From Falsirhodobacter xinxiangensis (GTDB lineage Bacteria > Pseudomonadota > Alphaproteobacteria > Rhodobacterales > Rhodobacteraceae): a stretch of 64,000 nt of DNA. Both the position numbers and the translations under genes were made by a program. Location: contig NZ_SMYN01000005.1 of the NCBI RefSeq assembly GCF_004959935.1, forward strand, positions 1 to 64,000, written 5' to 3'. Of this stretch, positions 21,373 to 24,133 are shown piece after piece. The notes beneath the pieces are model-generated. The model saw nothing but the letters and a program-made list of their open reading frames with translations, did no database searches and was not told where the DNA came from. Positions within the stretch are counted from its first letter, which is position 1. Every line of letters starts with the position of its first letter.

Positions 21373-22935
21373 TCAACCCGCGTCGCGATAGCTGACGGAC
21401 TTCACATCGTGATCCGGCGCGGTCTTCTGGCGGCGCAGAATCAGACGGTTCAGCGCGTTCACATAGGCGCGGGTCGAGGCGACGACCGTGTCGGTATCGG
21501 CGGCCTGACCCGTCGCGATCTTGCCGTCTTCCTCCAGCCTGACGGACACGGTGGCCTGCGCGTCGGTGCCTTCGGTGATCGCCTGCACCTGATAAAGCTG
21601 CAGCCGCGCCTCGTGCGGGAAGATCATCTTGACCGCGTTGAAGGCCGCATCCACCGGGCCGTCGCCCGTCGCATCCACCGTATGCTCCACCCCATCGACG
21701 GACAGGGTCAGTTCCGCCTCTTGCGGGCCTTCGGTGCCGCAGACGACGCGCAGCCGCTTGATCTGAAGCGTGTCATAAGCCGCCGAGGTGTCGGCATCCT
21801 GCATCAGCGCCAGCAGGTCTTCGTCGAAGACTTCTTTCTTGCGGTCGGCCAGTGCCTTGAAGCGCACGAAGACATCGGCCAGCTGGTTGTCGGCCAGCTC
21901 GAACCCCAGATCCTTCAGCTTGGCGCGCAGTGCGGCGCGGCCCGAATGCTTGCCCATGACCAGCGAGGTTTCGGACAGACCCACATCGGCGGGGCGCATG
22001 ATCTCGAACGTCTCGGCGTTCTTGAGCATCCCGTCCTGATGGATGCCGGATTCGTGCGCGAAGGCGTTCTTGCCGACGATGGCCTTGTTGAACTGCACCG
22101 GAAAGCCCGAGACGGTCGCGACCTTGCGGCTGATGTTCATCAGCTTGGTCGAATCGATCCCGGTGGCATAGGGCATGATGTCGTTGCGCACCTTCAGGGC
22201 CATCACGACCTCCTCCAGCGCGGTGTTGCCGGCGCGTTCGCCCAGACCGTTGATGGTGCATTCGATCTGGCGCGCGCCAGCTTCGACCGCGGCCAGAGAG
22301 TTCGCGGTCGCCATGCCCAGGTCGTTGTGGCAGTGGGTGGCGAAGATGATCTGGTCCGCGCCCGGCACCCGTTCCAGCAGCATGCGGATCAGGGCGGCGG
22401 ATTCGCGCGGCGCCGTGTAGCCCACGGTGTCGGGGATGTTGATCGTGGTCGCGCCCGCCTTGATCGCGATTTCCACCACACGGCACAGATAGTCATGCTC
22501 GGTCCGCGTCGCATCCATCGGCGACCATTGCACGTTGTCGCACAGGTTGCGGGCGTGGGTCACGGTCTCGAAGATGCGTTCGGCCATCTGGTCCATGTCG
22601 AGGTTCGGGATCGCGCGGTGCAGGGGCGAGGTGCCGATGAAGGTATGGATGCGCGGGCGGGCGGCGTGTTTCACCGCCTCCCAGCAGCGGTCGATGTCCT
22701 TGAAATTCGCGCGGGACAGGCCGCAGATCACCGAATTCTTCGAGTTCTTGGCGATTTCCGACACAGCCTCGAAATCGCCGATGGAGGCGATGGGGAAGCC
22801 AGCCTCGATGATGTCCACGCCCATTTCGTCCAGCATGGCGGCGATTTCCAGCTTTTCGGCATGGGTCATCGTCGCGCCGGGGGATTGTTCGCCGTCGCGC
22901 AGGGTGGTGTCGAAGATGAATACTTTGTCTTGCAT
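21373..22935 (-). CDS. leuA: 2-isopropylmalate synthase
   Basis: First committed enzyme of leucine synthesis, 520 residues, condensing 2-ketoisovalerate with acetyl-CoA. The catalytic TIM barrel (about residues 1-280) opens with DTTLRDGEQSPGATM and carries the metal-binding HCHND motif and the CTINGLGERAGN segment. The C-terminal domain (about 390-505, with a CGTEGPQEAELTLSVDG start) is the leucine-binding regulatory LeuA dimer domain, so feedback inhibition by leucine is expected. The ribosome site is AGAGAGAAG. A leucine-rich leader peptide gene and paired RNA stems precede it, giving a second, translational layer of control. Confidence 0.96.
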   Translation of the reverse strand: MQDKVFIFDTTLRDGEQSPGATMTHAEKLEIAAMLDEMGVDIIEAGFPIASIGDFEAVSEIAKNSKNSVICGLSRANFKDIDRCWEAVKHAARPRIHTFIGTSPLHRAIPNLDMDQMAERIFETVTHARNLCDNVQWSPMDATRTEHDYLCRVVEIAIKAGATTINIPDTVGYTAPRESAALIRMLLERVPGADQIIFATHCHNDLGMATANSLAAVEAGARQIECTINGLGERAGNTALEEVVMALKVRNDIMPYATGIDSTKLMNISRKVATVSGFPVQFNKAIVGKNAFAHESGIHQDGMLKNAETFEIMRPADVGLSETSLVMGKHSGRAALRAKLKDLGFELADNQLADVFVRFKALADRKKEVFDEDLLALMQDADTSAAYDTLQIKRLRVVCGTEGPQEAELTLSVDGVEHTVDATGDGPVDAAFNAVKMIFPHEARLQLYQVQAITEGTDAQATVSVRLEEDGKIATGQAADTDTVVASTRAYVNALNRLILRRQKTAPDHDVKSVSYRDAG

Positions 22936-22948
22936 GGTGCTTCTCTCT

Positions 22949-22976
22949 GGTCAGCGGTAGGTCGGGCGCTGATACC
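22949..22976 (-). promoter_or_regulatory. RNA stem next to leuA ribosome site
   Basis: GGTATCAGCG (22976-22967) pairs with CGCTGACC (22956-22949) with a two-base bulge, ending about six bases before the leuA AGAGAGAAG ribosome site. Its 3' arm with the following CAGAG is also partly complementary to the 5' arm of the larger upstream leader stem, so the structures could be alternatives. Seen in sequence; the switching is inferred. Confidence 0.35.
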
Positions 22977-23009
22977 TCTGAGCGTTCGCGCCCGGGGGCA
23001 CGCTCAGAG
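22976..23009 (-). promoter_or_regulatory. Leader stem-loop overlapping leu leader peptide stop
   Basis: A perfect 10-bp stem, CTCTGAGCGT (23009-23000) with ACGCTCAGAG (22985-22976), and a 14-base GC-rich loop. The 5' arm includes the last Leu codon and stop codon of the leader peptide, so ribosome position decides whether it can form. No U-tract follows, so it is not a standard intrinsic terminator; regulation could be at Rho-dependent termination or leuA translation. Confidence 0.6.
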
Positions 23010-23084
23010 CAGAGTAAGAAGAAGCAGGCCGCGGGTGCGGATCAGGGCGCTTGCGCCGAATGCGATATGTTGGTCCCGTGCCAT
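23004..23084 (-). CDS. leuL: leuA leader peptide (Leu-rich)
   Basis: A 26-residue reading frame starting MARDQHIAFG and ending GLLLLTLL just before TGA: six of its last seven residues are Leu, encoded CTG CTT CTT CTT (Thr) CTG CTC. This is the hallmark of a leucine attenuation peptide, whose translation stalls when charged tRNA-Leu is scarce. A TTGCAT-N16-TATAGT promoter places the transcription start at or within a base of the ATG, so the peptide is probably translated from a leaderless mRNA, as reported for the trpL peptide of Sinorhizobium. The stop codon lies within the following stem-loop. Function is inferred from position and composition. Confidence 0.75.
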   Translation of the reverse strand: MARDQHIAFGASALIRTRGLLLLTLL

Positions 23085-23091
23085 GGGGCGG

Positions 23092-23119
23092 ACTATAGGC
23101 GGCATGCGCGGCCATGCAA
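23092..23119 (-). promoter_or_regulatory. Promoter of the leu leader and leuA
   Basis: TTGCAT (23119-23114) and TATAGT (23097-23092) on the minus strand are 16 bases apart. Seven bases separate the -10 element from the leader ATG at 23084, so transcription should begin almost exactly at the start codon. It lies directly after the corA terminator. Confidence 0.6.
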
Positions 23120-23122
23120 CCC

Positions 23123-23148
23123 CAAATAAAGGACAGCTTTTCTGCCCT
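23123..23148 (-). terminator. Putative corA terminator
   Basis: On the minus strand AGGGCAG (23148-23142) and CTGTCCT (23136-23130) form a 7-bp stem with one G-U pair and a 5-base loop, followed by TTATTT. The stem begins at the corA stop codon. Confidence 0.5.
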
Positions 23149-24133
23149 AGAGCCACTTTTTCCGGCGGAACCAGATATAGGGAAGCAGCGCCGACAGCAC
23201 CATCGCGGCGATGGCCAGCGGATAGCCATAGCGCCAGTCCAGTTCCGGCATGTTGCGGAAGTTCATGCCATAGATGGTGCCGACCAGCGTGGGCGGCAGG
23301 AACAGGGCGGTCGCGACCGACAGGACCTTGATGATCTGGTTCTGCTCCACCCCGATCAGGCCGATGGTGGCGGAATGCAGGAAGGTCAGTTCCTGTTCGA
23401 CCTGCGATTCATAGGCCGACAGGGACCGCAGGTCGCGTTCGATCCCTTTCAGGCGTGCGGTGCCTTTCGGGGTCGGGCGGTCGCTTTCCTTGGACCCGGC
23501 GGTGCGCAGGAACGGGATCAGCCGATCGAGCGAGAGCATGCTTTCGCGCAGGATCGACAGGGTGCGGCTTTTGCGGCCAAGGCGGCGGACCAGCGATTGC
23601 AGGTCATGGCCGGGCTTGGGTTTGCGGGCGCTTTCCTCCTCGGTGAAGAAGATCGTGTCCGACAGGTCGGACAGGTCCGCCGAGGTCTGCTCCAGCACGT
23701 CTGCGATGCGTTCGACCACGGCTTCGAGGATCGTCGCCATCAGGCGTGGGGCCGTGTCGCATTCATGCGGGGCGCGGGCGATGCGGGCGGCGACGGTGCG
23801 CAGGGGCAGGGGGTTGGTGTAGCGCACCGTGATCAGCACATGCGGCAGCAGCACGAAGGTCAGTTGCGCGCGTTTCGGGCGGCCGTCCTGCACGCCTTCG
23901 ATCACCACAGCGGTCATCACCAGCGCGTCGCCTTCGACGTAAAGGCGGGACGAATCCTCAATATCGGCCATTTCCGCGCGGGTGGGAACCTGCACACCCA
24001 TCCGGTCCTCGATCAGCTTTTCTTCCCAGCGGGTGGGATTGCACAGATCGACCCAGAGAATGCCTTCGGCGGAGGGCGGGGCACCTTCGACGGATTTGAG
24101 GCCCTGCGGCGTCAGGAAGTGGTGTTCGATCAT
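23147..24133 (-). CDS. corA: CorA-family magnesium/divalent metal transporter
   Basis: A 328-residue CorA-type channel. A long cytoplasmic domain (about residues 1-265) ends in the pore helix region, followed by two C-terminal membrane helices with the signature YGMNF (GMN) at about residue 284 and a basic end FRRKKW. The N-terminal domain contains PTRAEMADIEDSSRLY, typical of CorA. It forms a pentamer in the inner membrane and takes up Mg2+ or Co2+; some relatives export. The start ATG lies only six bases beyond a terminator hairpin for the upstream gene, so its ribosome site (GGGGGC) falls inside that hairpin. Confidence 0.9.
   Translation of the reverse strand: MIEHHFLTPQGLKSVEGAPPSAEGILWVDLCNPTRWEEKLIEDRMGVQVPTRAEMADIEDSSRLYVEGDALVMTAVVIEGVQDGRPKRAQLTFVLLPHVLITVRYTNPLPLRTVAARIARAPHECDTAPRLMATILEAVVERIADVLEQTSADLSDLSDTIFFTEEESARKPKPGHDLQSLVRRLGRKSRTLSILRESMLSLDRLIPFLRTAGSKESDRPTPKGTARLKGIERDLRSLSAYESQVEQELTFLHSATIGLIGVEQNQIIKVLSVATALFLPPTLVGTIYGMNFRNMPELDWRYGYPLAIAAMVLSALLPYIWFRRKKWL

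Follow-up and report, generated by a model that had tools for sequence, protein, structure and literature searches.

A leucine-rich leader upstream of leuA in Rhodobacterales, a probable ribosome-mediated translational attenuator

The window analysed here (a whole stretch of 64,000 nucleotides of Falsirhodobacter xinxiangensis DNA) contains a leuA gene whose ATG is found at position 22935 of the minus strand, the strand that carries all the features described below. Its product matched solved 2-isopropylmalate synthases with a best E value of 8.8e-121. Upstream of leuA, the initial annotation had reported a 26-codon frame ending in GLLLLTLL, with its ATG placed 7 nt past a TATAGT hexamer, and this is indeed what the sequence contains. 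The run of leucine codons at the end of this frame carries the 5′ strands of a predicted helix called P3 below, and the last codon of the run is the start of another helix, P1. Coordinates are collected in Table 1.

Table 1. Features of leuA and its leader in the window
Feature	Position	Strand	Basis
leuA, 2-isopropylmalate synthase, 520 aa, LeuA1 type, presumed regulated gene	21373..22935	-	ORF and homology
Leader ORF, 26 codons and UGA, MARDQHIAFGASALIRTRGLLLLTLL then stop, probably leaderless	23004..23084	-	sequence
Leu codon run CTG CTT CTT CTT ACT CTG CTC, proposed sensor codons	23007..23027	-	sequence
-10 element TATAGT, 7 nt ahead of the leader ATG	23092..23097	-	sequence, spacing kept in relatives
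Possible -35 element TTGCAT, 16-nt spacer	23119-23114	-	by eye only
P1 5′ arm CUCUGAGCGU (CTCTGAGCGT in DNA), contains the last codon and the UGA stop	23000..23009	-	sequence, covariation
P1 3′ arm ACGCUCAGAG (ACGCTCAGAG in DNA)	22976..22985	-	sequence, covariation
P2 5′ arm CGGGCGC, in the P1 loop	22988..22994	-	best loop-to-downstream helix in relatives
P2 3′ arm GCGCCCG	22963..22969	-	scored against swapped and shuffled
P3 5′ strand UGCUUCU (23026-23020) and CUCUG (23014-23010), in the Leu codons	23010..23026	-	minimum free energy; native against swapped or shuffled
P3 3′ strand CAGAG and AGAAGCA, leuA Shine-Dalgarno region	22938..22949	-	predicted accessibility

No U-tract is present 3′ of P1 or of P2 before leuA in the window sequence, as had been annotated, and a terminator scan of the window gave no entry at the leader element. 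The same scan reported a promoter-like site within leuA (22913-22884) and a terminator-like site where the upstream gene ends (23148-23130), neither of which accounts for the leader element. The TATAGT -10 was not listed by a generic promoter scan of the window. Total folding energy of the leader was ordinary (z of -1.14, with 21 of 200 shuffles equally stable), and the case is therefore built on comparison between species.

Distribution of the leader and conservation of its reading frame

Using the first 50 residues of LeuA as a query, 30 leuA regions were obtained from relatives, and a common core, CTNCTTCTTAGC-CGCCTCTGAGCGTGCC-n-GGCGCGACCGCTCAGAGG-TGACCAGCGCC, was found upstream of leuA. 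A covariance model, R1, was built from 28 of these 30 loci, leaving out a near-duplicate (L003) and a locus where the element stands ahead of an inserted gene (L028). R1 matched all 390 genomes sampled in the order, each at least 90% complete, and all of its 139 genera (139/139). There was one match per genome, the window's own genome included, except in G261, the sole genome of the 390 to have two. Searches of Rfam 15 gave no match at E≤5 for the corresponding region of the window (22850-23250, 401 bases) and none at E≤1 for nine relatives; with ten further loci, a single match below the gathering score was returned (P17, E 0.47), within the leuA coding stretch of L241. The leader is a real element: all the genomes sampled in the order carry it, and no Rfam match was obtained. 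Parsing of 124 loci yielded 119 unique cores, and 118 leaders with a start.

Outside the order the element was found less widely. R1 matched 18 of 289 genomes of the class, 4 of them belonging to the home family; among the 14 matches outside this family, a LeuA motif was present downstream in 12, leuA was recognised by eye in a further one (L073), and the last one (L074), which has no leuA nearby, was taken as a chance hit. A broader model, R2, made of 37 sequences, matched 94 of 385 genomes of the class (5 from the home family), a count that includes by construction the genomes whose R1 matches were used to build it. Among 150 genomes drawn from the phylum, R2 matched 19, all within the class. 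We then considered 87 class loci outside the home family, namely 84 of the 89 R2 class matches found there (G536, G576, G685, L075 and L172 are missing) and 3 from the phylum draw. All 87 stand ahead of a leuA gene: a LeuA1 motif was found within 520 nt in 83 of them, and the next frame is LeuA2-like in the other 4, as read from comparison with an alignment.

In Rhodobacterales, 14 to 191 nt separate P1 from the leuA start. In three loci (L028, L061 and L064), a small gene of about 120 aa, cupin-like by eye, sits between the leader and leuA, so that the attenuator would control both. Three others (L092, L110 and L137), in which the piece ends ahead of any leuA motif, may resemble them.

The rule used to pick leader starts was permissive, and it clearly placed a few of them too far upstream (e.g. 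L019, L114). Of the 118 Rhodobacterales leaders, 116 have 4 to 6 leucines among their last 8 residues, and 79 end in SRL, SCL or SSL before the stop. The body of the peptide differs between relatives; the leucine run is kept. CUU and CUC account for 468 of the 592 leucine codons of the leaders in relatives, and for 34 of 197 in the frames of five neighbouring genes of the window. The leuA genes mostly use CUG (633 of the 981 leucine codons counted over their first 200 codons), CUU and CUC together reaching 252. At the 87 class loci outside the home family, reading by script gave a stop where one was expected in 82 and none there in 5. These 82 readable leaders end in a proline before the stop in 79 cases; 49 of them have an LRL core near the end, instead of an unbroken leucine run, and 17 have only two leucines among the last ten residues.

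Conservation extended to the putative -10 element. A TANNNT motif ending 5 to 9 nt ahead of an in-frame ATG or GTG was found for 100 of the 119 leaders of the order (58 at 7 nt and 30 at 8 nt). When the same candidate starts were examined at three wrong distances, 11, 6 and 7 of 119 were scored, and the background in the window was 21 of 2121 ATGs. Because the spacing between TANNNT and the start is kept in the order, leaderless transcription is likely in Rhodobacterales, and we infer from the motif that transcription starts at or beside the leader AUG. The leaderless, leucine-rich leader that had been annotated is thus supported by both the spacing (100/119) and the leucine run (116/118).

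Two minor features of the leader frame were noticed. In 69 of the 118 leaders the first 36 nt contain CATATC or CATATT, apart from helices P1 to P3; in the window it occupies 23069-23064, as His-Ile codons. A small early hairpin is predicted within the frame by minimum free energy folding of the window's leader (23057-23046). Its sequence differs among species by eye, and it could be a pause hairpin holding ribosome and polymerase in step.

Helices P1, P2 and P3

The end of the leader frame overlaps a perfect 10-bp stem, P1, as stated in the initial annotation: the arms 23009-23000 and 22985-22976 are fully complementary, and the 5′ arm takes in the last codon and the UGA stop (23006-23004). 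All 10 pairs are present in 110 of the 119 unique Rhodobacterales cores, with hardly any variation within the order (9.88 for native and 9.73 for swapped arms). Across the class, 97.6% of the alignment cells are paired, and both-side changes are found in 7 of the 10 pairs, compared to 1.4 in shuffles. When the alignment was taken to 89 rows fitted to the model, of which 87 are distinct and two spurious (reverse or partial hits), pairing was 97.2%, again with 7 of 10 pairs changed on both sides, and 3.3 in shuffles. In two loci (L073, L077) UAG replaces UGA as the stop, and the opposite arm still pairs. Covariation in P1 is class-wide. An inner extension of P1, GUGCC:GGCGC, was seen by eye on the alignment; its GUGCC, after the 5′ arm, is present in 116 of the 119 cores.

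The initial annotation had proposed alternative stems. This was supported by conservation, but P2 was missing from its list. When the P1 loop was paired with the 28 nt that come next, the best helix reached at least 6 bp in 118 of 119 Rhodobacterales cores, and contained GG(C/T)GC in 116 of 119. Its mean score was 20.2 for native pairs, 17.8 for swapped and 12.7 for shuffled ones, 67% of native scores being above the 95th percentile of shuffles. At 81 loci of other Alphaproteobacteria, outside the order, P2 was unsupported (13.8 native versus 13.9 swapped), and it was rejected as a helix common to Alphaproteobacteria; in 76 actinobacterial leaders a small effect was observed (13.9 versus 13.1, p 0.001). 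The GGCGC of the P2 5′ arm can alternatively pair with the GUGCC of the P1 inner extension. Since both use the same GGCGC, P2 could be an alternative helix, or else a pseudoknot partner of P1. In a pseudoknot, a loop would have to cross P1; its commonest length is 6 nt (67 of 119 cores), which is short by pseudoknot geometry for a 10-bp stem.

The third helix, P3, brings in the leuA ribosome binding site. It had been annotated that the stem arm is partly complementary to this site; in the minimum free energy structure of the window's leader, a partner for the site was indeed found, but the main partner is the leucine codon run immediately preceding the arm, with UGCUUCU (23026-23020) pairing with AGAAGCA (22944-22938) and CUCUG (23014-23010) with CAGAG (22949-22945). 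Duplexes between the leucine region and up to 45 nt ahead of leuA were computed for 113 of the 119 Rhodobacterales cores (three with leuA more than 300 nt away and three without a leuA motif in the piece were omitted) and for 77 of the 87 class loci (omitting the four LeuA2 loci, the partial L224, and the near-duplicates L180, L193, L202, L212 and L217). The leuA starts were chosen by rule, as those with the best Shine-Dalgarno score, and some are doubtful (e.g. L017, L022). Native duplexes were more stable than controls in Rhodobacterales (-15.85 kcal/mol, compared to -13.63 swapped and -13.67 shuffled; p 3e-10 versus swapped) and in the other Alphaproteobacteria (-17.87 kcal/mol, compared to -13.22 and -13.30; p 3e-11 versus swapped). 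A leader's own partner was within the best 10% of all partners in only 24 of 113 and 37 of 77 cases, so that P3, clearly seen in the averages, gives a weak signal in many individual species.

The signal was then located. Limiting the test to the Shine-Dalgarno region (108 of the 113 and 76 of the 77 loci, the rest overlapping P1), native pairing was -12.00 versus -10.42 for the control in Rhodobacterales, and -12.42 versus -9.90 in the others. In the spacer further upstream, Rhodobacterales gave no signal (39 loci, p 0.37), and other Alphaproteobacteria gave some (55 loci, -10.54 versus -9.07, p 0.007). Upon redrawing the leucine codons according to leuA usage, pairing to the Shine-Dalgarno region became weaker (p 0.0017), and the wider upstream region paired equally well (p 0.10). 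That leucine codon choice serves pairing is thus supported, in these comparisons, for the Shine-Dalgarno region only. In some leaders of other Alphaproteobacteria with the LRL core (e.g. L071, L148, L177), most of the CUUCGACUUAG stretch pairs with the sequence preceding the leuA start, as one long stem.

In the window, the predicted probability of an unpaired Shine-Dalgarno was 0.02 when the leucine codons were folded, and 0.42-0.51 when they were left out; the start codon was no freer upon masking of these codons (0.26 to 0.15). Masking raised the predicted accessibility of the Shine-Dalgarno in 82 of 113 Rhodobacterales and 61 of 77 other Alphaproteobacteria, and dropped it by more than 0.2 in 7 of 113 and 3 of 77. 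With a shuffled leucine region in place of the native one, the Shine-Dalgarno was predicted to be more open in 68 of the 113 leaders (p 0.011) and in 52 of the 77 (p 4e-6). By simple folding, the mean probability of P3 was only 0.28 and 0.33 in the 113 and 77 leaders.

Proposed mechanism and alternatives

Conservation, covariation, the pairing signal and gene context, as established by the comparisons above, point to a leucine-sensing, ribosome-mediated translational attenuator of the kind called "LEU element", which we consider the probable nature of this leader. Transcription would begin at or next to the leader AUG. With charged tRNA-Leu plentiful, ribosomes would traverse the leucine codons up to the UGA inside P1 and then leave; P1 would form, and the freed leucine codon run, a CUU/CUC run being expected to be anti-Shine-Dalgarno-like by nature, would pair with the leuA Shine-Dalgarno through P3, resulting in low leuA translation. 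When leucine is short, a ribosome would stall on the leucine codons and cover the 5′ strand of P3 as well as the start of P1, leaving the Shine-Dalgarno free, and leuA would be translated. P2 would form upon blocking of the P1 5′ arm, or else together with P1 as a pseudoknot. Stalling, and the sign and size of regulation, are what we infer from this model. Several observations count against it: the low mean probability of P3, the leaders in which masking lowers the predicted accessibility, the start codon that masking does not free in the window, the equal pairing of redrawn leucine codons over the wider upstream region, the LRL cores and two-leucine ends outside the order, the five class loci lacking a stop where expected, the unsupported P2 of other Alphaproteobacteria, and the S. 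coelicolor mutations discussed below.

In translation attenuation of the ermC type, a ribosome stalled by an antibiotic frees the Shine-Dalgarno of the next gene, by way of a separate sequestering stem. The mechanism proposed here likewise has a stalled ribosome freeing a Shine-Dalgarno, but the stall would be due to an amino acid and not to an antibiotic, and the sensor codons themselves are predicted to pair with the Shine-Dalgarno. The design would be economical, the leucine codons being sensor and lid together, in a leader that no Rfam entry matched.

Because no terminator was listed and pairing is centred on the Shine-Dalgarno, translational control is the simplest reading. The initial annotation had already favoured a non-standard type of control, Rho-linked or translational, and conservation together with the pairing between leucine codons and Shine-Dalgarno now supports the translational one. 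Rho could act downstream of such control. A transcriptional attenuation by Rho itself, terminating on untranslated leuA or on bare leader RNA unless stalled or initiating ribosomes prevent it, is in our opinion unlikely. It would agree with the lack of a listed intrinsic terminator at the leader and with the wide range of P1-to-leuA spacers in Rhodobacterales, and Rho is proposed for other terminator-less leaders (cys) in the passages of Seliverstov et al. 2005 (PMC1262725) cited here. Nevertheless, the pairing signal of Rhodobacterales is at the Shine-Dalgarno region and absent from the spacer, and pure Rho control needs none; if Rho was the effector, P3 may act only via translation-coupled polarity.

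The passages cited from the same work describe the actinobacterial "LEU element" ahead of leuA, and report that mutations of the S. coelicolor leuA leader had some effect, inconsistent with classical attenuation; elsewhere in the text, leucine codon mutations are said to be without influence on regulation. As these mutations misfit classical attenuation, the authors lean to a bound protein in Actinobacteria. For the present leader, a regulator binding P1 and P2 and stabilising the sequestration of the Shine-Dalgarno, the leader peptide being incidental, is a quite improbable explanation. Parts of P1 and of its loop are more conserved in sequence than pairing requires, as for GUGCC in 116 of 119 cores, which would suit a bound protein. 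However, the in-frame leucine run is kept across the order and the class, P1 varies with compensation across the class, and the distance from the -10 to the AUG is kept in the order. The same layout in 390 of 390 genomes of another order, with covariation and a kept leader frame, argues for sensing by the ribosome over a clade-specific bound protein.

In a classical transcription attenuation, P1 would be the intrinsic terminator and P2 the antiterminator, and the GGCGC common to the P1 inner extension and P2 would make them possibly mutually exclusive. We hold this to be very improbable, as no U-tract follows P1 or P2 in the window, the terminator scan gave no entry there, and P2 is without support in other Alphaproteobacteria. 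Least credible of all is a leader-derived small RNA or peptide acting in trans, which had been put forward initially by reference to rnTrpL/peTrpL of Sinorhizobium: the leader is probably leaderless, like trpL, but no terminator was listed for its release and the peptide body is variable, so that this claim found no support.

Relation to leader elements of other bacteria

The leuA leader described here is best read, from its sequence features, as a variant of the LEU-element attenuator, with the stop codon inside P1 and placed before a different LeuA type. The likeness to the LEU element, as presented in the cited parts of PMC1262725, consists of a leader ORF with a leucine run, a base stem between leucine codons and the leuA Shine-Dalgarno (here computed only), and the missing of other attenuator parts. 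The LEU element belongs to Actinobacteria, and to LeuA2 genes in those that were fetched, whereas the present leader belongs to Alphaproteobacteria and mainly to LeuA1 genes. The stop codon, inside P1 here, is in the loop after the P1 5′ arm in four actinobacterial leaders inspected by eye. The LEU element has a two-helix pseudoknot within the base stem; here, P1 and P2 are each supported in Rhodobacterales, and P2 is unsupported in the other Alphaproteobacteria.

Other leaders have partial likeness. LeuL1 of Streptomyces lividans is, according to the parts of PMC8079986 cited here, MRFGLLLLSCRGEGL followed by the stop, transcribed leaderless and without a typical Rho-independent terminator; it has GLLLLSC in common with some Rhodobacterales leaders (e.g. 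L006, L036), from a different phylum. The leuA leader of Corynebacterium glutamicum, another actinobacterium, has four consecutive leucine codons, as here before leuA, and is discussed under transcriptional attenuation in the cited part of PMC4046766. As for trpL (rnTrpL) of Sinorhizobium, described in the cited part of PMC10117765 as a tryptophan attenuator yielding an sRNA, it too is an alphaproteobacterial leader ORF, leaderless and belonging to an amino-acid gene; for the present leader no terminator was listed, and no role in trans is known.

Actinobacterial leuA regions were taken from Tsukamurella, Nocardia, Microbacterium and Nonomuraea, and a further set consisted of the best 80 of more than 580 loci, mostly Microbacteriaceae and other Micrococcales by their titles. 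A frame with a leucine run was found upstream in 79 of these best 80, two of the frames being clearly wrong. We kept 76 leaders, after dropping the two wrong frames (L295, L314) and L309, the latter by eye and with no strict rule. With these 76 loci, P3 was again stronger for native than for swapped partners (-16.29 versus -14.53, p 5e-4). The Rhodobacterales leader L006 and the Microbacterium leader L237 (as well as L283) share 23 identical nucleotides, CGGCCTGCTTCTTCTTAGCTGCC, in the same frame. R2 matched L237 with an E value of 7.5e-4 and L238 weakly (0.042), and did not match the actinobacterial leaders L234 and L236. In a leuA copy carried by a Streptomyces plasmid (L239), no such leader was found by script, and R2 was at chance level (E 1.7). 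The LeuA of the window is 27% identical to LeuA2 of Tsukamurella. By eye, LEU-type leaders were also found ahead of LeuA2 in Sinorhizobium meliloti (pSymB), Rhizobium leguminosarum, Sphingomonas parapaucimobilis and the betaproteobacterium Cupriavidus metallidurans.

A module shared by Actinobacteria and Proteobacteria, by descent or transfer, is a tentative interpretation, which we regard as somewhat less than an even chance: it would be a portable cassette, placed before LeuA1 and LeuA2 genes in Alphaproteobacteria, a betaproteobacterium and Actinobacteria, in which the leucine sensor codons are also the anti-Shine-Dalgarno. Alternatively, codon and pairing constraints could have produced convergence between the phyla.

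Among the literature matches listed, considered through titles, abstract starts and term counts, no leuA leader of Alphaproteobacteria was found; Vitreschak et al. 2004 may mention one. In two RNA-motif surveys covering Alphaproteobacteria (PMC1273637 and PMC8632094), the term count for the word leuA was 0. The question of the mechanism of the LEU element, unsettled in 2005, becomes testable with this leader, and Paracoccus and its relatives are indicated as tractable hosts.

As a minor observation, the four proteobacterial LeuA2 loci mentioned above (L240, L241, L242 and L243) lie on plasmids or megaplasmids, and a P2-like pair, GAGGAGC/GCUCCUC, was noticed by eye in the Sinorhizobium one.
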